Made by a program: the position numbers and the translations under genes. 42,160 nt of DNA from Chloroflexota bacterium (GTDB taxonomy: Bacteria; Chloroflexota; Dehalococcoidia; Lucifugimonadales; Australimonadaceae). Below are positions 18,785 to 41,424 of this stretch, piece by piece (positions within the stretch are counted from its first letter, which is position 1; each line of letters begins with the position of its first letter). The notes beneath the pieces are model-generated. The model did no database searches, was not told the DNA's origin, and worked only from the letters and a program-made list of their open reading frames with translations. Location of the stretch: the NCBI GenBank assembly GCA_009838965.1, contig VXQP01000023.1, positions 1 through 42,160 of the forward strand. Reading direction: 5' to 3'.

Positions 18785-20425
18785 CTACCCGTCGACATGG
18801 TTCGTGGATGTCGCAGCAAGGTAGGGAGATTCTTTGGGTGGGTCGATGAGCCAGAAGAGCGATTGCTTCGACAACGGAGTCGGTTCCTGCATGTGGTCCG
18901 GTCTCCCCCAGAGGAGGACAGTGTAGACGCCGGGGCCATGTTCTTTAAGGACTGTGGTGAGGTCTGCTCTTATATCGAAAGCACTGCTGGCAATGTCCAT
19001 ACGGTCGGCGACTATCCGTCTTTTCTGTGTAATGATTGTTTGGGCGGATTCGCTGGCAGCTTTGGCGGATGCCCAGGCGTTGTGCGCTTGCTCAGGGCTG
19101 CTTGGAGCGGGTCGGTCCGCCGGGGTCTGGTACGGGTCTACGCATCTCACTACTTGAGAGTCAGTTCTGACATCCGGGGTTGAGAATGACCAGCCTGGAA
19201 GTAATGGCTCCACCACGTAACCGACTGAGACGGGGTTACAAAGGGAGTAGGTGTATGCGAGTTGCCCTCGGGTCAGGCGTGTTGGCGGTACATCGTAGGC
19301 AATCGAGACATTAACGGTATCCACGATATTGAGTGTGGCGCCCGACACTTCGCCTTGGAGTGTGAGCACGCCCTCCGAGTTTATGGTGGGTTTGGTTGTG
19401 TAGCTGACATAGTCAGACGAAAAGTGTTGGACCAGCATGACATTGAACTGGTCGTGGGCTATGCCGACATTCAGGATGGTGTGCGCCGGGTCCAGCAGGT
19501 TGCGGCGGTGTCCTGGGCTGGCCATCCATCCTTTGATGGCATTACCTATCTCGCGATGCATATCGTCGATGGGTCTGTAGCCTTGGTTGGATGCAATGCA
19601 GTAGTCAGAGCCTCGGCCGTTCTCGCCGTCGGCTCCGGTACCGCCAGACAAAGTGTATCGATGGTTCGGTTTGAGTCCCCACTGGTCCCAGTGGCTGCTG
19701 TAGCATCCTTGAAGCGCCGCTTCAGCGTGGAGTTGAGCAGCTCCGTTGGAGCCAAGCCGGACTGGCGGTACGCCAGCCCCAGCCCTTTGCTCGTTGGTCA
19801 GTTGAACCATAAGCTCCTTGAGCGCAAGGTGACGCTGGACGGGATCTGAGAACTGTTCACGTTCGTCCTCGGTGTCGTGGAACCCGGTAGTCGTTACCTC
19901 AATATCCCCTGACCGAGCTTCAATATCTGCCTCTGGTGTTGCCTCGGTGGAGGTTCGAGCAGCAGTACCATCGATATCCCCGGTCTGAGCCTCAGGATTT
20001 GCCTCTGACGCTTCCTCGGCGATGGTCCGAATCGTGTCTGCACCGAGGAAGTCGGCGTTCTCTTCTAGCGCGAAGTAAGCGGCTATGACTGCGGCCGCAG
20101 CCACGACAATGACGACAGCCCAGCAGAGCCCATGCGACTGCCTGCGGCTACCCCGGTTTCGGCCCCGTGCCGAACGGCTACCCGGTTGAGCACGCAGGGT
20201 GCCTCTTCGTTCCATTCGTGGTATGTCTTCGGCGAAGACAGACCATCTTCCATCGTCTCCCGGAGGGAGGATGTAATCCCGAACGGTTGGGGTTCTGAAC
20301 ACCCCATTGCAACTACGGCATCTCCACAACAGATTCTGATGCCTCTGTTGCCTGATGCGAATCCTATGACTTCCACACAGCGGGCAAACTCCAAGGCGTT
20401 CGTAGTGTTCACCTCCGTTCGGCAT
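18785..20425 (-). CDS. Membrane-anchored CAP-domain protein with N-terminal zinc ribbon
   Basis: The 546-residue protein has a Cys4 zinc ribbon (Cys14, 17, 36, 39: CPLC...CRSC). A basic stretch is followed by one transmembrane segment at about 100-120 and an acidic linker with an imperfect repeat (EANPEAQTGDID, EADIEARSGDIE). A CAP/SCP-PR1 domain spans about 205-345, with HWDQWG, GENGRG, IKGWMASPGHRRNLLDP and VQHFSSDY. A unique domain of about 200 residues follows. The ribbon should be cytoplasmic and the CAP domain outside. GGAG lies 6 bases before the ATG. Its base composition is far lower in GC than neighbours (for example 27 of 60 bases at 19381-19440), suggesting transfer. The function of bacterial CAP domains is mostly unknown. 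Confidence 0.82.
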   Translation of the reverse strand: MPNGGEHYERLGVCPLCGSHRIRIRQQRHQNLLWRCRSCNGVFRTPTVRDYILPPGDDGRWSVFAEDIPRMERRGTLRAQPGSRSARGRNRGSRRQSHGLCWAVVIVVAAAAVIAAYFALEENADFLGADTIRTIAEEASEANPEAQTGDIDGTAARTSTEATPEADIEARSGDIEVTTTGFHDTEDEREQFSDPVQRHLALKELMVQLTNEQRAGAGVPPVRLGSNGAAQLHAEAALQGCYSSHWDQWGLKPNHRYTLSGGTGADGENGRGSDYCIASNQGYRPIDDMHREIGNAIKGWMASPGHRRNLLDPAHTILNVGIAHDQFNVMLVQHFSSDYVSYTTKPTINSEGVLTLQGEVSGATLNIVDTVNVSIAYDVPPTRLTRGQLAYTYSLCNPVSVGYVVEPLLPGWSFSTPDVRTDSQVVRCVDPYQTPADRPAPSSPEQAHNAWASAKAASESAQTIITQKRRIVADRMDIASSAFDIRADLTTVLKEHGPGVYTVLLWGRPDHMQEPTPLSKQSLFWLIDPPKESPYLAATSTNHVDG

Positions 20426-24521: not shown

Positions 24522-25754
24522 CTACGCGGGCAATTCGCCCCCGTACTCCGCCCAGAGCGCGTGATACTCTGCCTCGATCGCCTCGGGCTGGTCCACCAGG
24601 AACGGGAAGCGCGGGGGGTACCGTGTCGGCGCGAACTGCCCTATCTCTGCACGGATGCGCGGAAGCGGCACCATCGCATTCCGGCCTGCGTCGCGCAGGA
24701 TGCCCTTGGGGTCGCCGCCGTCCTCGATGACGGCCAGGTCGTCCATGAACTGCTTGCGCAGCATGATGACGCCCCGGTCGCTCTCGCCCAGGTGCTCGTT
24801 CCACCGGTCGGAGACGGCGCCCTGCCCCACCCACGCGATGAAGTCCTGGTTCATGATATGGCTCGATATCCAGCGCCCCGTCTTTTCGTCCACGATGGGC
24901 GAGTGCCAGTACGGGATGCGCTCCTGCTCGAACGGCTGCTCCCCGGGGATCGGGTCGATGAACCACCCGACGCTGAGCGTGTGCTCGTCGTCTATCGGCA
25001 CCCTCCACTCGAAGTGGCCCGTGTACAGCGCGTTCGGCCACAGGCAGACGCGCCCCACCTTCCAAAGCTCGTTCTCCTCATCCGTGTCCGAGCGGATGCG
25101 GAGGTACCGGATGCCGAACTCGAACTCGTCGAACCCGATGCGCGTATGCGTCGGCGAGTAGCCGGGATCGCCCTTGAGGCGGAGCGACTGGTTCGAGTGC
25201 AGCCACTCGAAGTGCACCGGGTCTATCGAGTTCTCCTGGCACTGCAGCCAGTTGCACGGTATCTCCGAGAACACCACCTGCTTGTAGCCCCGGTCGTAGT
25301 AGCGGTCCCAGTCCCACAGCTCCGGCACCGGCTCTTCGCCGATGTACGCCCACAGCAGACCTGCTTTCGCCTGCACGTGGTACGCCGTCGCGCGCACCTT
25401 CTCCTTGAAGTTCGCCTCCGGGTGGGAGATCTGTTCGTACGGCTGCCCGATGCAGCGTCCCGTCGTATCGAACAGCCACCCGTGGTAGCTGCACCGCAGC
25501 CCGCCATCCTCCTCCACCCACCCGTACGACAGGTCCGCCCGACGGTGCGGACAGTGACGCTCCAGCAGCCCGTACTCGCCCGACACGTCCCTGAACAGCA
25601 CGAGGTCCTCGCCCATCAGGCGGATGGGCTTCACCGGGTTGTCGTCCAGCTCCCCGACGGCGGCCACCGGATGCCAGTAACGGCGCATCAGCCGTCCCAT
25701 CGGCGTGCCGGGCCCCACCTTGGCGAGCAGGTCATTCTGTTCGGGCGTCAGCAT
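24522..25754 (-). CDS. Rieske non-heme iron oxygenase 1 (phthalate dioxygenase-like alpha subunit)
   Basis: The 410-residue protein has a Rieske [2Fe-2S] site: Cys68-x-His70, then Cys88-x2-His91. The mononuclear iron ligands lie near residue 185 in NSIDPVHFEWLH (D-x2-H-x4-H), with a later Asp in HIMNQDFIAW. The class hydroxylates or demethylates aromatic or alicyclic substrates with O2 and electrons from a separate reductase, which is not encoded here. The ATG at 25754 gives MLTPEQNDLLAKVGPGTPMG, the same start seen in the three paralogues; GGAGGAA lies upstream. It is a single gene flanked by repeats. Confidence 0.93.
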   Translation of the reverse strand: MLTPEQNDLLAKVGPGTPMGRLMRRYWHPVAAVGELDDNPVKPIRLMGEDLVLFRDVSGEYGLLERHCPHRRADLSYGWVEEDGGLRCSYHGWLFDTTGRCIGQPYEQISHPEANFKEKVRATAYHVQAKAGLLWAYIGEEPVPELWDWDRYYDRGYKQVVFSEIPCNWLQCQENSIDPVHFEWLHSNQSLRLKGDPGYSPTHTRIGFDEFEFGIRYLRIRSDTDEENELWKVGRVCLWPNALYTGHFEWRVPIDDEHTLSVGWFIDPIPGEQPFEQERIPYWHSPIVDEKTGRWISSHIMNQDFIAWVGQGAVSDRWNEHLGESDRGVIMLRKQFMDDLAVIEDGGDPKGILRDAGRNAMVPLPRIRAEIGQFAPTRYPPRFPFLVDQPEAIEAEYHALWAEYGGELPA

Positions 25755-25777
25755 CTCAAACGATTCCTCCGATTCCC

Positions 25778-25968
25778 CGTCATTCCCGCGAAGGGCGGGA
25801 ATCCAGAGTGCGCTCCGGCTACGCAACGATTCGCCAACGCGCGAGCGTAAAGGTAAGCCGCGCCCTGCAGGGTGTCAACGCGGTTCCGTCGTTCCTGCGC
25901 AGGCAGGAACCCCGCCCCCACCTCTCCTTGGGGGAGAGGTCGACGCGCTTGCGCGGCGGGTGAGGGCG
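25778..25968. repeat. Element A copies and element C between oxygenase 1 and the esterase
   Basis: An A variant (CATTCCCGCGAAGGGCGGGAATC) lies at 25778-25804, A at 25888-25911 and C at 25918-25968 with the arm GCGCTTGCGC. The C copy ends at the esterase stop codon. Confidence 0.75.
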
Positions 25969-25969
25969 C

Positions 25970-27124
25970 TTAAAACCTCCCGAAGAACTCCCGGATCGCC
26001 TCCGCCCCCGCGAAGCCCGCGCTGCCGTCGACCGTCGGCCACTCGTGCCCGAAGTTGTCGACCCTGTAGTACCACACCTCGTTGCCGCCCGCGCAACCGA
26101 CGTGCCGGCGTCGCGTCGTGTTCGCGTTGAGCGTATCCGTCTCCACGGTCGAGCACCCGTTCCTCTCGCTCCAGTACGCGATGATCTCGTCGTGGGCGGG
26201 CGCTCCCGGCCCGCCGCTCGGATCGACGATGCCGTCGACGGGCACCACCGTGTCGTCGAGCCCCGATATCTGGAGGAGCGGGAACGGAGCAGCGCTGTCC
26301 CTGTCCTCCCACGCGCTGCCCCATGCCGCTCCGACCACCGACGCCGCGCCCCGGAAGACGCCGGGCGCCTCCATCGCCAGCAGGTAGCTCATCATCCCGC
26401 CGTTCGAGAACCCTGCCGCGAAGGTACGCTCGGGATCGAGGCCGTGCTCGTGCTGCAGGCTCCGAGCCAGCGCGCTCAGGAAGCCGATGTCATCGTCGAC
26501 GCCCGGGAACGTGTGCGCGTTCCAGTACGGCGTCCCTTCATAGTTGCCGCTGCCCTGCGGGTAGACCACCGCGAACCCGTTGGCGTCGGCGACGCGGTCC
26601 AGCCCGACCCACGCCCGGGTCTCGCCCGCGTTCCCTCCGTGACCGTGCAGGAAGAAGACCAGCGGAGCGTTCGCCGGCAGGTCCTGAGGTGCGTGGTAGA
26701 GGTAATGCCGGGTAACGCCGTCGTGTTCGAACGTCAGGAACGTGCCCGTATCGGGCGCGGGTTTCCCCCCGTCGACGCTCGGCTTCTCCTCGCAGAACCC
26801 CCGGCACGTCGCGTCATCGCCGCCCTTCGCGATGCACGCCTCATGGCACGCTTCGGGATCTGCGTCGCCGTCCTTCCCTGTGACGTCGTCCTTGCCCTCG
26901 TCCTCCTTCGCCGGAGGCTCGACCGTGCCGCCTGCGCAGAACGTGCGGCAGCTCGCATCGCTGCCGCCCTTCGCGATGCACGTCGCATGGCACACCGCGA
27001 AATCGGCATCTCGCGTGTCCGGTGTAGGAGTCGAGGCCGGCGTCGGTTCTTCGTCGCAGCCGAGCGCTCCGGCCAGTACCAACACGCAAACTGCACAGAG
27101 GATGGACAGGACAGAACGATTCAT
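25970..27124 (-). CDS. Secreted lipoprotein esterase, LpqC/PHB-depolymerase-like, with twin Cys motifs
   Basis: The 384-residue protein has a lipoprotein signal (VLAGALGC, Cys23). Two copies of a Cys-x3-Cys-x9-Cys-x3-Cys motif follow at residues 45-63 and 93-111 (each near CIAKGGxDAxCRxFC). An alpha/beta-hydrolase domain follows with LVFFLHGHGGNAGETRAW, the nucleophile GFSNGGMMSYLL, Asp in ISGLDDTVVPVDG and His in FGHEWP. It resembles LpqC, feruloyl esterase and polyhydroxybutyrate depolymerase and probably cuts extracellular esters. The Cys repeats could form disulfide-linked helical hairpins for attachment or binding. It lies between two Rieske genes, so it may release their substrate; that is inference. 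Confidence 0.87.
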   Translation of the reverse strand: MNRSVLSILCAVCVLVLAGALGCDEEPTPASTPTPDTRDADFAVCHATCIAKGGSDASCRTFCAGGTVEPPAKEDEGKDDVTGKDGDADPEACHEACIAKGGDDATCRGFCEEKPSVDGGKPAPDTGTFLTFEHDGVTRHYLYHAPQDLPANAPLVFFLHGHGGNAGETRAWVGLDRVADANGFAVVYPQGSGNYEGTPYWNAHTFPGVDDDIGFLSALARSLQHEHGLDPERTFAAGFSNGGMMSYLLAMEAPGVFRGAASVVGAAWGSAWEDRDSAAPFPLLQISGLDDTVVPVDGIVDPSGGPGAPAHDEIIAYWSERNGCSTVETDTLNANTTRRRHVGCAGGNEVWYYRVDNFGHEWPTVDGSAGFAGAEAIREFFGRF

Positions 27125-27215: not shown

Positions 27216-28526
27216 CTATGCCCCGTTGTGCCCGTTCGAGCCCATCCGCGCCGCCAGCGCCTCCGCGTTCCGCTTCCACACGGACGACCACTCCTCCGTC
27301 TTGGAGATGACCTCCTGCCACGCGCCGATGTGGTTGAAGACGTTGGCCGACGCCTCGCGGACCACGTGCGGCGCCTCCGCGCCGTCCTGCACCTGCCGCG
27401 TCGCCTTCAGCAGCAGGCGCCGCGAGAGCGCGACCGCCTTGTCCGTGTAGCCGAGGTGCTCCGTCGTCCGGTCCTGTATCGCGCCCTCCCCCTCCGTCGC
27501 CCACATATCGTGGACGGGGAAGCTCGGCCCCATGCCGAGGAAGCTGCGCGTCCGCATCTCCTCGCGGTCCTGCAGGTAGCGGTTCCGCAGGTTGCGCTCG
27601 TTCGTGTAATCGTCCTTCAGCCCCTCGAACATCGTGAGCCCGAGCGCGTTCTTCGGCAGCGGCCCTTCCGAGCGCACCATGAACATGAACTTCCAGTGAT
27701 GCGTGTCGTCTACCGGCACATGCCAGTTCACTCCGTACACGCCCGGGAACGCCGGGAACGACGCCAGGTTCGGATAGATGAAGTTCGTGATGCGCACGTA
27801 GTCGTCGCCAGCGTCCGTGTCGCGCACCGCGTAGATGCGGATGCCGTAGTCAGTCTCCTCGACCTCGATCGTTGGCGACGGATCGTCGCCCATCATGCGG
27901 TTCGATGTGGCCGCCCCGCCCTGCACGTTGCCCGTCGCGACGCGGCTCCCGCTGGCGTCCTCGCGGATGAAGAAGTGCAGGAACGAGAGGTGCTGCGGGT
28001 CGATGTTGCCCTCGTTCCCCTGCTGGTAGTTGCACTCGTGGTAGATCTTCGTGACGACGCGGTTCTCCGGTGCGATGTCCAGGAACTCGTACGCCGGCAG
28101 CAGCGGTGGCTCGCCCGGCCCCAGGTACGCGAACACGACACCCGCGCGCTCCTGCACCGGGTACGAGAGCAGTTGGATCTTGTCCTTGAACGTGCTGCCC
28201 TCCGGCTCGCCCGGCTGCTCCAGGCAGTTGCCGTGGATGTCGTACAGCCAGCCGTGGTACAGGCAGCGCAGGCCGCCGTCCTCGATGCGAGCGTAGCTCA
28301 GGTCTGCCGCGCGGTGCGCGCAGTGCCGCGCCACGAGTCCGAGGCGGTCGTACTGGTCCCGGAAGAGCGTCAGGTCTTCGCTCAGAACGCGCACCGGCAT
28401 CGGAGCGCTGCCCGGCTCGATCTCCTCCGCCAGCGCGACCGGCTGCCAGTAGCGCCGGAGCAGGTCGCCCGCGGGATCGCTCGGCCCCGTTCGGCAAAGC
28501 AGTTCGTTCTCTTCCTTCGTCAACAT
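27216..28526 (-). CDS. Rieske non-heme iron oxygenase 2
   Basis: The 436-residue alpha subunit has Cys69-x-His71 and Cys88-x2-His91 for the [2Fe-2S] cluster. GNIDPQHLSFLH carries the mononuclear iron ligands. It differs from oxygenase 1 in having Ala after the first Cys (CAHR for CPHR) and a longer C-terminal region. An aromatic or ether substrate is likely, but the exact one is unknown. A GGGAGGCGAG Shine-Dalgarno precedes the ATG. The end (GSNGHNGA) is flexible. It is downstream of the dppDF genes with a 147-base gap containing repeat B. Confidence 0.93.
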   Translation of the reverse strand: MLTKEENELLCRTGPSDPAGDLLRRYWQPVALAEEIEPGSAPMPVRVLSEDLTLFRDQYDRLGLVARHCAHRAADLSYARIEDGGLRCLYHGWLYDIHGNCLEQPGEPEGSTFKDKIQLLSYPVQERAGVVFAYLGPGEPPLLPAYEFLDIAPENRVVTKIYHECNYQQGNEGNIDPQHLSFLHFFIREDASGSRVATGNVQGGAATSNRMMGDDPSPTIEVEETDYGIRIYAVRDTDAGDDYVRITNFIYPNLASFPAFPGVYGVNWHVPVDDTHHWKFMFMVRSEGPLPKNALGLTMFEGLKDDYTNERNLRNRYLQDREEMRTRSFLGMGPSFPVHDMWATEGEGAIQDRTTEHLGYTDKAVALSRRLLLKATRQVQDGAEAPHVVREASANVFNHIGAWQEVISKTEEWSSVWKRNAEALAARMGSNGHNGA

Positions 28527-28673: not shown

Positions 28674-29645
28674 CTAATACAGATGACACGCCACGAAGTG
28701 CCCCGGCGTCTCCTCTTTCCACTCCGGCGCGACCTCCGCGCAGACGTCCTTCGCGAACGGGCAGCGCGGGTGGAAGCGGCAGCCGGACGGCGGGTTGAGG
28801 GGGCTCGGCACCTCGCCCTGCAGGATCATCTCGTCGCGCTGCAGCGCCGGGTGCGCGGGAAGCGCCGCCGAGAAGAGCGCCTGCGTGTACGGGTGCAGCG
28901 GATGCTCGTACAGGTCGTCCGTCTCCGCCCGCTCGACGATCTCGCCGAGATACATGACCGCCACCTCGTGCGCGAGGTAGCGGACCGTCGCGAGGTTGTG
29001 CGACACCATCAGGTAGCTCACGTTGTGCTCCACCTGCAGGTCCCGCAGCAGGTTCATGATCTGCGCCTGCACCGACACGTCCAGCGCCGACACTGGCTCG
29101 TCGAGCACGATCAGCGACGGCTCCACGCTGAGCGCGCTCGCCATCGCGATGCGCTGCCGCTGCCCCCCGCTGAACTCGTGCGGGAAGAGGTCGGCCTGCT
29201 CCGGGCGCAGTCCCACGTCGTTCAGCAGCTCCAGCACGCGCTCGCGCGCCTCGCGCCCGCTCACGTGCTTATTGACCACCAGCGGCTCCGCGATGATGTC
29301 GCGTACCCGCATCCGCGGGCTGAGCGAGCTCCACGGGTCCTGGAAGACCGCCTGCACCTGCATGCGGAACTGCCGCAACTCCTGCCCGCCGAGCGCATGG
29401 ATGTCCTGCCCTTCCATCGAGATGGTGCCGCCTGTCGGTGTTTCGAGGCGAAGCACCAGCTTCGCCGTCGTCGTCTTGCCGCAGCCCGACTCGCCCACGA
29501 GCGCGAGCGTCTGGCCGCGCCGCACTTCGAAGCTGATGCCGTCGACGGCGCGCACCCAGCCCACCGTCTTCATCAGCACCAACCCCTCGGTCACGGGGAA
29601 GTGCTTCTGCAGGTTCTCGGCCCTTACGAGGACGTCGGCTTCCAC
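28674..29645 (-). CDS. dppF: Oligopeptide/dipeptide-type ABC transporter ATPase, DppF-like
   Basis: The 323-residue ATPase has Walker A GESGCGKTTTAK, the Q-loop VFQDPWSSLSPR, the signature FSGGQRQRIAMA, Walker B LIVLDEPVSALDVS and the switch His in MVSHNL. The family C-terminal zone SGCRFHPRCPFAKDVC, a likely Fe-S or Cys cluster motif, is present. It powers uptake by the DppB/DppC permeases. The start is GTG at 29645 with GGAGGAG upstream, and the gene overlaps dppD by 22 bases. Peptide-family transporters also import glycosides, nickel or small aromatics, so the substrate is open. Confidence 0.93.
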   Translation of the reverse strand: MEADVLVRAENLQKHFPVTEGLVLMKTVGWVRAVDGISFEVRRGQTLALVGESGCGKTTTAKLVLRLETPTGGTISMEGQDIHALGGQELRQFRMQVQAVFQDPWSSLSPRMRVRDIIAEPLVVNKHVSGREARERVLELLNDVGLRPEQADLFPHEFSGGQRQRIAMASALSVEPSLIVLDEPVSALDVSVQAQIMNLLRDLQVEHNVSYLMVSHNLATVRYLAHEVAVMYLGEIVERAETDDLYEHPLHPYTQALFSAALPAHPALQRDEMILQGEVPSPLNPPSGCRFHPRCPFAKDVCAEVAPEWKEETPGHFVACHLY

Positions 29646-30664
29646 TTCTCCTCCAGTAGCCAGCAGGCGGCGGTGTGTCCCCCGGAGCCGGTGAACTCGG
29701 CGGGGTACGCCTCTTCGCACCGGTCGTGAACGTGGGGACAGCGCACCGCGAACCGGCAGCCCTGCGGCAGCGCGAACAGCGCGGGCGGCTGACCCTCTAT
29801 CGCCGTGAGCCGCTCGACGCGCTCCTCCATCTTCGGGATGGAGCCGAGCAACGCCTGCGTGTACGGGTGCGACGGGTTGTCGAATATCTCATGGATGCCG
29901 CCCTGCTCCACGATGCGCCCCGCGTACATCACCGCGACCCGGTCGCACATCCGCGCCACGACGCCCAGATCGTGCGTGATGAACAGGATGGCGACGCCCG
30001 TCTCGCGCTGTATCTCCTTCAGCAGGTTGAGGTACTGCGCCTGTATCGTCACGTCCAGCGCCGTCGTCGGCTCGTCGGCGATGAGCAGCCGCGGCTGGCT
30101 CTCGATGGCGATGCCGCCCACAACGCGCTGCTTCATGCCGCCGCTCATCTGGTGCGGGAAGTCGGAGAGCCGGCGCTCCGGTGCGGCCACGCGCATCATC
30201 CGCAGCACCTCCATCGCCCGGTCCCTGACGGACTGCTTGCTCCTGCGTCCGCCGTTCCGTCCGCTGCGAGCCGCGATCGATTCCGTGAGCTGGTTGCCGA
30301 TGGTGAACACCGGGTTCAGTGCCGTCTGCGGGTCCTGCAGGATCATGGATATCTTGCGTCCCCGCATCTCGCGAACGTCCGGCATCCGCATGCGCACGAT
30401 GTCGTCGCCGTCGAGCAGGATGCGCCCGTCCACGATGCGCGCGGCCTCAGGCAGCAGGCGCAGCAGCGAGAGCGCCGTCATGCTCTTACCGGAGCCGGAC
30501 TCCCCCACGAGCCCGAGCGTCTCGCCCTCGCGTATCTGGAAACTGACGCCGTCGACGGCGCGCGTCACCCCCCACTTCGTGAAGAGGTGCGTCTGCAACT
30601 CCTGCACGTCCAGGACGACGTTGCCCGCGTTCCGCTCAGTGCTGCTCACGCTCTCGCCAATCAC
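29624..30664 (-). CDS. dppD: Oligopeptide/dipeptide-type ABC transporter ATPase, DppD-like
   Basis: The 346-residue ATPase has Walker A GESGSGKSMTAL, Q-loop ILQDPQTALNPVF, signature MSGGMKQRVVGGIA, Walker B LLIADEPTTALDVT and ITHDLGVVARMCDR. The C-terminal GCRFAVRCPHVHDRC is the usual Cys motif. An Arg-rich insert (RSGRNGGRRSKQ) lies before the signature. The start is GTG at 30664, overlapping the stop of Rieske oxygenase 3 (GTGA). Translation is therefore coupled to that oxygenase, and the ATPases are made with it rather than with the permeases. Confidence 0.93.
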   Translation of the reverse strand: MIGESVSSTERNAGNVVLDVQELQTHLFTKWGVTRAVDGVSFQIREGETLGLVGESGSGKSMTALSLLRLLPEAARIVDGRILLDGDDIVRMRMPDVREMRGRKISMILQDPQTALNPVFTIGNQLTESIAARSGRNGGRRSKQSVRDRAMEVLRMMRVAAPERRLSDFPHQMSGGMKQRVVGGIAIESQPRLLIADEPTTALDVTIQAQYLNLLKEIQRETGVAILFITHDLGVVARMCDRVAVMYAGRIVEQGGIHEIFDNPSHPYTQALLGSIPKMEERVERLTAIEGQPPALFALPQGCRFAVRCPHVHDRCEEAYPAEFTGSGGHTAACWLLEEKWKPTSS

Positions 30665-31935
30665 GCAACCCCGACCGCGAACCGCTCTTCCAGCGGCCGC
30701 TCGGCCTTCCAGGAGCTGTCCGCCGGCTGCACGTACGCGTCGGAGCAGATCAACTCATAGTCCCCCTGCTCCCACACGCCCGGCGGCTCGACGCCCTCTT
30801 CCGCGAGCGCGATAGCGGCCTTGATGTACAGCTTGCGCGCCTTGATGATCGCCGCGTCGGTCGTCCCCAGGTGCTCGGCAGTGCGGTCGACGATGGGGCC
30901 CATGCTCTCCTGCACCGCGTTGTCCTGCACGAACAGCCCGCGGATGCCGGACCAGCTCTCTTTCTTCATCAGTTCGCGGTCCTGCAGCCACATGTTCTGC
31001 GGTCCGGCGTGCTTCACGAACGTCTTGGGGTCGAACGAGTAGTAGCCCCGGTACTCCTTCAACTGCTCCTTCAACTCGTCGGACATCGGCGTGTCCTGGT
31101 TGAAGCACACGTCCCAGGCCCAGCACGTGCCGTCGTCGCGCGGCACCCACATGTTCCAGATGCGGTTCTCCCCCCTCGCGAACGGCGGGTACGACGACGC
31201 GGGCATGATGTGCGGCGTTATCCGCACGTAGCGCTTGTCCTCCTCCGGCCCCCGCCGTATCGCGGCGTAGCGGAAGCCGTAGGTCGTCTCTTCTATCTCG
31301 AGCTTCGGCCTCGTGTCGTTGAACATGAGGTTGTTGCCCAACCGCCTGCCGGGCGCGGCCATCGGCCCCCGGGCGGTGTTGTGCAGGAACGACGCGTGCA
31401 CCGTGTCGATACCGCCCTCGAGGCTCTGGAGCCAGTTCGCGTCCTGTATCCACTTCGCCATGATCCGGTTCGATTCCGGCATCGTCGTCCACAGGTAAAC
31501 GGGGAACGGCGGTTCGCTCTCCGGAGCGCCCATGTACACCCATATCGCGCCCCCGTGCTCCCGCACCGCGTACGACCCTGCCCGCACCTTGTTGCGGAAT
31601 CCGCTCTCCGCCGGCTCGGTCGGCATGTCCACGCAACGGCCGGATACGTCGAACTTCCAGCCGTGGTAGAGGCAGCGCAGACCGTCGTATTCGTTGCGGG
31701 CGAGCGCGAGCGACACCCCTCGGTGCGGGCAGTACTCGGAAAGGATGCCCACCGCGCCGCTCGTGTCGCGGAACGCGACGAGGTCCTCGTTCAGCAGGCG
31801 GAAGCGCACCGGAGCGCCGTCAGCCTCCAGTTCGTCAGAGATCAGCGCGGGCAGCCAGTAGCGGCGGAAGAGCGCGCCCATCAGTGTGCCCCTGCTCGTG
31901 TGGGTGATGAGCTCGTTGTCAGCGTGGCTCAACAT
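30661..31935 (-). CDS. Rieske non-heme iron oxygenase 3, coupled to transporter ATPases
   Basis: The 424-residue protein has Cys69-x-His71 and Cys88-x2-His91 and the iron ligands in GGIDTVHASFLH. Its start MLSHADNELITHTSRGTLMG follows a GAGGAGG site. It is closest in layout to phthalate 4,5-dioxygenase-type oxygenases, with LFVQDNAVQESMGPIVDRTAEHLG in the C-terminal region, a stretch shared with oxygenase 4. Its stop overlaps dppD, and its 5' end faces the divergent promoter of the solute-binding protein. This suggests that the oxygenase acts on what the transporter brings in. No reductase or ferredoxin adjoins. Confidence 0.94.
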   Translation of the reverse strand: MLSHADNELITHTSRGTLMGALFRRYWLPALISDELEADGAPVRFRLLNEDLVAFRDTSGAVGILSEYCPHRGVSLALARNEYDGLRCLYHGWKFDVSGRCVDMPTEPAESGFRNKVRAGSYAVREHGGAIWVYMGAPESEPPFPVYLWTTMPESNRIMAKWIQDANWLQSLEGGIDTVHASFLHNTARGPMAAPGRRLGNNLMFNDTRPKLEIEETTYGFRYAAIRRGPEEDKRYVRITPHIMPASSYPPFARGENRIWNMWVPRDDGTCWAWDVCFNQDTPMSDELKEQLKEYRGYYSFDPKTFVKHAGPQNMWLQDRELMKKESWSGIRGLFVQDNAVQESMGPIVDRTAEHLGTTDAAIIKARKLYIKAAIALAEEGVEPPGVWEQGDYELICSDAYVQPADSSWKAERPLEERFAVGVA

Positions 31936-34105: not shown

Positions 34106-34209
34106 CCGGCGGAGTGCGTGGGAGGCGTGTCTGGTCCCTTCCCCCTTGACGGGGGAAGGCTGGGATGGGGGTGAGCCGGTGCGGAGGGCGACCCCCAAGG
34201 AGGCGCACC

Positions 34210-35151
34210 ATGACCGAACGAGACCCTGCGGGCGAAGCAGCCTACGAGAAGACCATCAAAGACCCGACTCCGCTCGACCCGGTGGTCGCCGCCGAGCGCC
34301 TCAAGCTGGTGAAACGCATCTTCGACGAGCAGGGCGTCATGTTCTGGATCGGCTCCGGCACCCTCCTGGGCGCCGTGCGCGAGGGGCGTTTCATTCCCTG
34401 GGACGACGAGATGGACACGGCGGGCGTCATCGGGATGCACGGCCTCGACATGGACACGATCTACCGCGTTGGGGAGGCGTTCCGGTCGTACGGCTTCTAC
34501 CCGCGCATAAAGCCCAACGTCCGCCACGTCAGCGTCGCCTTCATCAAGGACGGCATCCGCACGGACTGGACGTGCCACCGCATCGTCAACGGCAGAGCGT
34601 ACGAGTTCCCCGGCGTCGAGTTGCCCCTGCACCTGTTCGAGAGCCTTGGAGAGATTGAGTTCATTGGCGAGCGCTTCCGCACCCCCAACCCGCCCGAGGA
34701 GTACCTGCGCCGAAAGTACGGCCCCGACTGGCGCACGCCCAAAGGGCCGGGGTTCGAGTCCGACGTCGTCGGAGAGGTCGCGGAAGACGCGCTGCTCAGC
34801 CCGAGAGAGAGACTCCGCCGCAGGCTCTCCCTTGGCTTGCTGCCGCGCCCCAACGTCAGCGTGCAGATATTCGACCGCGACGGCGGTTCCGTGGCAGGCG
34901 CGGAAGTGGCCGTCGCGGGCCTTGGCCGCTCGAAGACCGACGCGCGAGGAGTCGCGCGGTTCTTCGTGCCCGGCTTCGCCTGCTACGCCATGACCGTCAC
35001 CTACCCCGGCCACCGGGAACTGCTGTACGAGGAGTTCCTCGACCCCGGCGCCGACTACACCTACCACCCCGGCCCCATCGTCACGCCCGAGGAGCACTAC
35101 AAGGCCGGCGTCCGCGCCATGGCCCTCGTCCGAACAGACGATGCGCGATAA
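34210..35151 (+). CDS. LicD/fukutin-like nucleotidyltransferase-fold protein fused to a beta-sandwich domain
   Basis: The 313-residue protein has the LicD-type signature GSGTLLGAVREG (residues 48-59) followed by IPWDDEMD (62-69), whose acids should bind metal. LicD proteins transfer phosphocholine or similar groups to glycans. From about residue 215 a separate domain with QIFDRDGGSVAGAEVAVAG and TDARGVARFFVPG looks like a carboxypeptidase-regulatory or Ig-like beta-sandwich. AAGGAGG precedes the ATG. It sits between the binding protein and the two permeases, ending 12 bases before dppB, an unusual place for this family. No signal peptide is seen, so it is cytoplasmic. Confidence 0.78.
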   Translation: MTERDPAGEAAYEKTIKDPTPLDPVVAAERLKLVKRIFDEQGVMFWIGSGTLLGAVREGRFIPWDDEMDTAGVIGMHGLDMDTIYRVGEAFRSYGFYPRIKPNVRHVSVAFIKDGIRTDWTCHRIVNGRAYEFPGVELPLHLFESLGEIEFIGERFRTPNPPEEYLRRKYGPDWRTPKGPGFESDVVGEVAEDALLSPRERLRRRLSLGLLPRPNVSVQIFDRDGGSVAGAEVAVAGLGRSKTDARGVARFFVPGFACYAMTVTYPGHRELLYEEFLDPGADYTYHPGPIVTPEEHYKAGVRAMALVRTDDAR

Positions 35152-40113: not shown

Positions 40114-41424
40114 ATGCTGAGCACGGCAGACAACGAGATGCTGACGCAGGTGGGCAAGGGAACGCCGATGGGCGAACTCATGCGCCGCTACTGGCTCCCC
40201 ATCATGCCCGTAGAGGAGCTCGGCGGCCCCGACTGCGACCCTCAGCGCTTCCGCCTGCTCGGCGAGGACCTCATCGTCTTCCGCGACTCCAAGGGCGACG
40301 TGGGCGTCTTCTCCGAGACGTGCCCGCACCGCGGCGCATCGCTCTTCTATGGGCGGAACGAGGAGGGCGGCCTCCGCTGCGTCTACCACGGCTGGAAGTA
40401 CGACGTCACCGGCCAGTGCGTCGACCAGCCGAACGAGCCCGGCGACAGCAACTTCAAGGACAAGATACGCGCATGGGCGTACCGGGGCGCGGTCCACGGC
40501 GGCGTCGTGTGGGCGTACCTCGGCGAGGGCGAACTGCCGGGACTGCCCGACTTCGAGTGGACTGCCATGCCGGAGGAGCAGCGCAACTTCTCGCTCGCGC
40601 AGCGCGCCTGCAACTGGATGCAGGGCCTCGAGGGCGACATCGACACCAGCCACCTCTTCTTCCTCCACGGGCGGCTGGACCCGGGCGCCTCCGTCGCGAC
40701 AGGCGTATGGCACAACGACAAGCACCCCACGCTGGAGGTCGTCCCCACGAAGTACGGTGTCGTCTACGGGGCGAACCGCGAGGAGAACGAGGAGACAACC
40801 TACTGGCGTATCACCCAGTTCCTCTTCCCCATCTTCACCTTCTTCCCCGCCGCCGCCGACGGCACCGTGCCCGGCCACATCTGGGTGCCGATGGACGACC
40901 ATCACACGATGGTGTGGACGGTCTCCTGGCATCCCACGAAGAGCATCGCGGACAGGAGGCGGTTCGGCACGCTCGGCGCGGCGACCCACCCCGCGGGCGA
41001 GCTGCTGCCGGACACCGCCGGACCGCTCGGACGATTCCGCCCGCGCGCCAACCGCAAAAACGACTACGAGATAGACCGCACCCTCCAGCGCACCGAGACG
41101 TTCACCGGCATCTCCACCGTCTTCCTGCAGGACCAGGCCGTCACCGAGAGCATGGGCCCCGTCCAGAACCGCAGCATCGAGCACCTCGGACGCTCGGACG
41201 GCATGATCATCCAGGTGCGCCGGCGGCTCCTGAACGCGGCGAAGGCCCTCCACTACGACAACGTGACTCCCCCGTGCGTCGAGAACCCGGAGTGGTACCG
41301 CGTGCGCTCCGCCATCGGCACGCTCCCCAAGGGCGAGTCGTGGTATGAGCAGATGCACGACTGGCTCTACGCCAAGGTGAACGAGCCTCCCGCGCTGGAG
41401 CTCGCCTACCCCCACTCGCGCTAG
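40114..41424 (+). CDS. Rieske non-heme iron oxygenase 4
   Basis: The 436-residue protein has Cys70-x-His72 and Cys89-x2-His92 for the [2Fe-2S] cluster. GDIDTSHLFFLH carries the mononuclear iron ligands. The C-terminal VFLQDQAVTESMGPVQNRSIEHLG closely mirrors oxygenase 3, so these two are the nearest pair in the window. GGAGG precedes the ATG. It likely hydroxylates or O-demethylates an aromatic acid. It is the only one of the four on the plus strand and faces a flavoprotein-cupin-amidohydrolase run, which could act on the same compound. No reductase is encoded here. Confidence 0.94.
   Translation: MLSTADNEMLTQVGKGTPMGELMRRYWLPIMPVEELGGPDCDPQRFRLLGEDLIVFRDSKGDVGVFSETCPHRGASLFYGRNEEGGLRCVYHGWKYDVTGQCVDQPNEPGDSNFKDKIRAWAYRGAVHGGVVWAYLGEGELPGLPDFEWTAMPEEQRNFSLAQRACNWMQGLEGDIDTSHLFFLHGRLDPGASVATGVWHNDKHPTLEVVPTKYGVVYGANREENEETTYWRITQFLFPIFTFFPAAADGTVPGHIWVPMDDHHTMVWTVSWHPTKSIADRRRFGTLGAATHPAGELLPDTAGPLGRFRPRANRKNDYEIDRTLQRTETFTGISTVFLQDQAVTESMGPVQNRSIEHLGRSDGMIIQVRRRLLNAAKALHYDNVTPPCVENPEWYRVRSAIGTLPKGESWYEQMHDWLYAKVNEPPALELAYPHSR

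Follow-up and report, generated by a model that had tools for sequence, protein, structure and literature searches.

The window analyzed here, the whole stretch of 42,160 nucleotides of contig VXQP01000023.1, is part of a SAR202-type Chloroflexota genome (G000; 3.01 Mb, 96.6% complete) of a probably sponge-associated bacterium. On its minus strand, an open reading frame at 25970-27124 encodes an esterase of 384 amino acids, which we judge to be an otherwise ordinary surface enzyme carrying what are probably two stapled helical hairpins, a real and conserved pair restricted to this lineage. The gene is composed of the following parts:

27059-27124, minus strand: signal peptide, residues 1-22, with the lipobox-like end ALG/C (sequence; equal layout in three relatives)
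27056-27058, minus strand: Cys23, the probable lipid-anchored residue (sequence and family alignment)
27002-27055, minus strand: Pro/Thr-rich acidic linker, residues 24-41 (sequence)
26930-27001, minus strand: module 1, residues 42-65, with the core C45-x3-C49-x9-C59-x3-C63 at 26936-26992 (sequence; predicted helices 37-51 and 56-63)
26858-26929, minus strand: second acidic linker, variable in length, residues 66-89 (alignment)
26780-26857, minus strand: module 2, residues 90-115, with the core C93-x3-C97-x9-C107-x3-C111 at 26792-26848 (sequence; predicted helices 90-99 and 104-112)
26738-26779, minus strand: Gly/Pro linker, residues 116-129 (sequence)
25970-26737, minus strand: alpha/beta-hydrolase domain, polyhydroxybutyrate (PHB)-depolymerase/feruloyl-esterase-like, residues 130-384 and stop (domain, sequence and fold matches)

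The G+C content at third codon positions is 0.86 both over the whole gene and over the module region, and the frame is kept in relatives, which together indicate that the coding frame is real. Cysteines occupy positions 10, 13, 23, 45, 49, 59, 63, 93, 97, 107, 111, 324 and 344. The original prediction described the enzyme as secreted; the lipobox-like Cys23 and the Pro/Thr-rich linker behind it, an arrangement also present in three relatives, make it better described as a probable lipoprotein, with signal peptide and lipobox judged by eye from the sequence and these relatives.

The twin cysteine motifs reported in the original prediction were borne out in the translation, and the span given for them, 26780-26992, takes in both cores and four residues more. 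The two 19-residue cores (residues 45-63 and 93-111) have identical C-x3-C-x9-C-x3-C spacing and are identical at 14 of the 19 residues and 46 of the 57 bases, while the best pair of 19-mers in 1000 shuffles of residues 24-129 reached 9 identities. At the DNA level, the cysteine pattern occurs three times in the window, compared to 0.06 occurrences expected from 100 shuffles; the third occurrence (28840-28896, plus strand) lies antisense to an ABC ATPase and is regarded as a chance match. Across the genome, 22 matches to the bare pattern were counted, and 146 to the reversed pattern, used as control. Upon translation, only the two esterase copies lay in a convincing gene, and the remaining matches, mostly in Arg/Ser-rich frames, were dismissed. 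That the cysteines might have arisen by chance in a disordered linker without any folded module could be argued from the shortness of the stretches and the low model confidence around them. With two copies, retention of 8/8 cysteines in four genomes and a similarity far above that of the shuffles, we consider a chance origin refuted and give it hardly any probability.

The modules were detected in four of the six genomes of the genus that were examined (G000, G001, G003 and G004), always as a pair and exclusively in the esterase. Among 16 genomes of the family, a 77-residue twin-module query found the window's own genome and the other three, and a profile built from the eight copies gave the same four strong matches; a weak match in G004 (contig C39, L005, E 0.095) contained no module and a profile match in G015 (E 0.69) was meaningless. 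The profile matched three of 393 genomes of the class at E≤0.01, all belonging to the window's genus. Among 400 genomes of the phylum, 26 matched at E≤0.1, with G000 as the sole convincing case and all others at 0.004-0.09, which is chance level. Of the 25 places outside G000, 19 were scanned, and L068 alone (G098, E 0.068) had four correctly spaced cysteines, in Arg-rich frames that were taken as chance. Two of 11 loci from named relatives carry the modules, namely SAR202 cluster bacterium bin16 (MPMJ01, L015), which according to a passage in PMC5649159 originates from the sponge Aplysina aerophoba, and Chloroflexota RHO1_bin_8; this search may omit records of the window's own genome. The other nine (Thermoplasmatota, Mariniblastus, Bacteroidetes, Verrucomicrobiales, Gemmatimonadetes, Aureibaculum and Lewinellaceae) lack them, which agrees with the earlier statement that no such module is known for esterases of this type, and a distant esterase in G008 (32%) has no cysteine motif either. 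A scan of viral contigs with the module profile gave seven pattern matches and no confirmed relative. A search of plasmids with the whole protein returned 41 records, all of them below 80% query coverage. The eight matches listed have their start at or beyond query residue 114, so that none of them touches the module cores. Among the open-access papers listed in literature searches on alpha-hairpinins in prokaryotes, on CXXXC helical hairpins and bacterial esterases, and on sponge-related SAR202 esterases, none reported such a bacterial module; those listed for sponge feruloyl esterases and for LpqC offered nothing of use.

Copies of module 1 are on average 77% alike among themselves and copies of module 2 69%, compared to 61% between the two kinds. 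The higher likeness within than between copies indicates that the duplication probably predates the split of the module-bearing genomes, although the two copies of the window's protein reach 74%. An alignment of the sequences from the window, L015 and L016 is free of gaps in the modules, as opposed to 5 to 12 gap columns in linker 2. The ratio of non-synonymous to synonymous substitution rates (dN/dS) was 0.14-0.36 for the modules, noisy due to their shortness, 0.50-0.88 for linker 2 and 0.12-0.19 for the esterase domain; module values against L003, where the contig stops within the gene right after module 2, were noisier still (0.11-0.44). Seven columns are invariant in all eight copies, comprising the four cysteines, a loop Lys and Gly and one Asp. 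In every copy, the residue before the last cysteine is aromatic (F or Y), and the one after the first cysteine is H, Y or L.

The original prediction of helical hairpins found support in two AlphaFold2 runs on different alignments, both of which modeled each module as helix-loop-helix with one Cx3C pair per helix. The module-only run (three sequences) had a mean predicted local distance difference test score (pLDDT) of 68, with 70-82 in the module blocks and helices at 2-16, 21-29, 55-64 and 69-78; the full-length run (12 sequences) had a mean of 71.6 and helices at 37-51, 56-63, 90-99 and 104-112. The loop carries a Gly, and Ser55 and Asp103 immediately precede the respective second helix. 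We regard the hairpin fold as quite probable. The disulfides are likely as well, albeit with less assurance, and the even number of cysteines in the mature protein, Cys23 aside, agrees with them; they constitute the weakest link of the stapled-hairpin reading. Our grades for the fold, the disulfides and the docking role discussed below are judgements and not computed values.

Profile searches with the single copies, confirmed by an alignment scan, gave matches below curated cut-offs throughout. The best copy matched the Pfam family Hefutoxin (PF08095) with 20.6 bits (E 5e-4, profile positions 3-22 of 22; cut-off 25) and a second one with 13.5 bits (E 0.091), whereas six of the eight copies had no match, leaving one of eight at E<0.01. 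Two other copies matched plant Thionin (E 0.006 and 0.022; 17.5 bits for one of them, with a cut-off of 23.6). The suggestion that the module might be new is thus weakly challenged by one copy each of Hefutoxin and Thionin likeness, neither of which amounts to family membership. None of 40 cysteine-preserving scrambles matched Hefutoxin or Thionin, indicating that the likeness exceeds mere cysteine spacing; six other families were matched once each by the scrambles, with a best E of 0.014. Scans of the eight copies against PHROGs and NCBIfam gave nothing of note. The likeness can nevertheless come from convergence of short sequences.

The cysteine frame is that of known hairpin peptides. In both copies and all four genomes, the modules conform to the alpha-hairpinin motif, given as CX3CX4-20CX3C in a passage of PMC11591084, and prediction adds the helix-loop-helix (block pLDDT approximately 70-82). 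They share both with the plant alpha-hairpinins VhTI, BWI-2c, MBP-1, EcAMP1 and the N-terminal Cys-rich modules of vicilins, and in vicilin precursors tandem modules precede another domain as in the esterase (excerpts of PMC7191063 and PMC11591084). In contrast to these small plant peptides released from precursors, the bacterial modules are fused to a lipoprotein esterase, nearly neutral and shorter in the loop (9 residues), with no sign of release as free peptides, and no sequence homology to alpha-hairpinins was shown. Scorpion kappa-hefutoxins (kappa-KTx, PF08095), of the cysteine-stabilized (CS)-alpha-alpha type, are described in part of PMC7191063 as having the alpha-hairpinin cysteine frame with bonds C1-C4 and C2-C3. 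Their profile aligns with a single module copy, and they are free venom peptides whereas the modules are joined to an enzyme. As text in PMC11722136 views the scaffold as convergent among organisms, convergence likely underlies the resemblance to plant alpha-hairpinins and scorpion kappa-KTx.

Several observations weigh against the explanation that we prefer, which is set out below. The models were built from 3 and 12 sequences and their confidence in the modules is middling (block pLDDT 70-82 and 60-74). With the module model, Foldseek found no match in PDB and VIA-align found nothing, and the module profile retrieved nothing credible from PDB sequences. A statement in PMC7191063 holds that the cysteine pattern alone does not predict the fold. 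The module cores are near neutral with a net charge of +1 to -2. The whole esterase was not found in G002 and G005 of the same genus, indicating that the system is dispensable. Searches of the genome at E≤0.001 detected neither VKOR nor Thioredoxin_4 nor DsbB, with positive results in control genomes, and the start of the one DSBA-family protein present, inspected by eye, has no signal peptide. This apparent shortage of disulfide-forming enzymes favors the alternative that the four cysteines of each module stay reduced and serve as a metal-binding site or as redox thiols. No conserved His or acidic residue stands beside the cysteines to complete such a site, and free thiols do not usually persist in proteins exported into oxic seawater. 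We therefore regard a metal or thiol site as improbable.

A DSBA-family (FrnE-like) gene at L075:1483-2121 (G000:C49:11299-11937) has an in-frame TGA at the expected first cysteine of the CPxx motif (YYDFR-TGA-PFVF). It is present in 14 of the 16 family genomes, with TGA at the same place in all 14. A hairpin-like stretch after the TGA is kept nearly base for base in most genomes, although its folding alone is unremarkable (z -0.83). The gene likely encodes a SAR202 selenoprotein.

The catalytic part is a member of Esterase_PHB (PF10503; 45.9 bits with a cut-off of 23, E 5e-12) and scored just below the cut-off of 150 for NF050058, extracellular type 1 short-chain-length polyhydroxyalkanoate depolymerase (147.9 bits, E 4e-43), so that by sequence it is of the NF050058 kind though not filed as a member. 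The best PDB sequence was 9j07, annotated as feruloyl esterase (E 2.6e-14), and the nearest folds were PHB depolymerase, acetyl xylan esterase and feruloyl esterase. All 12 aligned sequences share S240, D291 and H360, which presumably form the catalytic triad. With the PHB-depolymerase/feruloyl esterases (PF10503; NF050058; 9j07, 8jh8 and 8daj) the enzyme thus shares the catalytic domain and the presumed Ser-Asp-His triad, to which it adds the N-terminal twin hairpins.

The surroundings of the esterase contain the following genes:

24522-25826, minus strand: next gene downstream, a Rieske oxygenase whose C-terminal domain is LigXa-like (domain match; syntenic in G004)
27216-28526, minus strand: next gene upstream, a Rieske oxygenase whose C-terminal domain is LigXa-like (domain match; syntenic in G001)
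28674-29720, minus strand: oligopeptide-type ABC ATPase, OppF-like (domain match; adjoins the esterase in G003 and G004)
29624-30664, minus strand: oligopeptide-type ABC ATPase, OppD-like (domain match and synteny)
30661-31935, minus strand: third LigXa-type Rieske oxygenase (domain match)
40114-41424, plus strand: fourth LigXa-type Rieske oxygenase (domain match)

Within its 42 kb, the window thus has four Rieske oxygenases with LigXa-like domains, grouped around an ABC transporter of the oligopeptide type that also comprises two permeases and a family 5 binding protein. An open reading frame between the binding protein and the permeases (34165-35151, plus strand) matches LicD in part (30 residues, E 1.9e-12), and a CAP-domain protein at 18785-20425 (minus strand) has N-terminal CxxC pairs that resemble a zinc ribbon. 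Gene order is kept as OppD (in pieces), OppF, esterase and Rieske oxygenase in G004 and as OppD, OppF and esterase in G003; in G001, Rieske oxygenase and esterase are followed by the contig end. A passage in PMC6946804 reports that ring-hydroxylating dioxygenases are expanded in SAR202 group VII, with most copies in the sponge symbiont MPMJ01, the record of the module-bearing relative L015. The neighbors suggest scavenging of aromatic esters, with the pathway link between esterase, Rieske oxygenases and ABC transporter drawn from gene position.

The explanation that we tentatively prefer for the whole is that, in this SAR202 genus, a membrane-anchored extracellular esterase acquired a pair of small alpha-helical hairpins, located between lipid anchor and hydrolase domain. 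Each hairpin would probably be stapled by two disulfides (C45-C63 and C49-C59; C93-C111 and C97-C107) in alpha-hairpinin/CS-alpha-alpha style, the loop Gly (G53, G101) capping the first helix and S55 or D103 the second; such capping by Gly and Ser/Asp would account for most invariant module residues. Acidic linkers of free length would suspend the hairpins as beads on a tether, and the pair would most likely dock the enzyme on an extracellular partner, be it a polymer, a particle or the sponge matrix. The hydrolase may then cut ester bonds of aromatic or short-chain esters, and the released compounds could enter the cell through the neighboring ABC transporter, there to be attacked by the Rieske oxygenases of LigXa type. 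The anchoring and the substrate in this scheme are our inference, and docking is possible but by no means assured.

Binding or tethering is our best guess for the role of the hairpins, and a passive stalk is nearly as likely. In the latter case, the hairpins would be compact, protease-resistant beads without a ligand that keep the catalytic domain at a distance from the membrane, which seems a somewhat unlikely but serious option. All strongly conserved residues (the four Cys, Lys-Gly and Asp) can be explained by the fold, and the linkers are acidic and free in length, as a stalk would allow. However, a plain Pro/Thr linker would suffice for this purpose, the nine esterases from other phyla do without modules, and a mere spacer would not need the aromatic residue kept before the last cysteine. 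The hairpins might also be protease inhibitors whose loops bait trypsin-like sponge proteases and thereby shield the enzyme or the cell, in analogy to plant alpha-hairpinin inhibitors, in which the P1 Arg sits in the loop, presumably as Arg-Gly in pumpkin C2 (passages in PMC7191063). The module loop has 9 residues, compared to the 12 to 13 that we counted from the cysteine numbers given there for BWI-2c and VhTI, its Lys is located at Cys2+3 and not at +4, and Lys-Gly would equally suit a helix end, which makes inhibition a distinctly unlikely function.

A further-reaching interpretation, which we consider rather improbable, is that the alpha-hairpinin/CS-alpha-alpha scaffold arose independently in SAR202 bacteria living with sponges, which would use it as a tandem extracellular module for recognition or protease blocking, fused to a scavenging esterase, for life inside a bacteria-digesting animal host, as a counterpart of the plant vicilin-type modules. 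If the fold holds, the esterase would show a single bacterial lineage employing a scaffold that the cited papers describe from plants and venomous animals. The 19-residue core, which can be deleted or synthesized, would offer a simple handle on how uncultured SAR202 cells keep enzymes at their surface, and the locus would place an ester-cutting step beside the Rieske oxygenases, whose expansion has been reported in SAR202 group VII.
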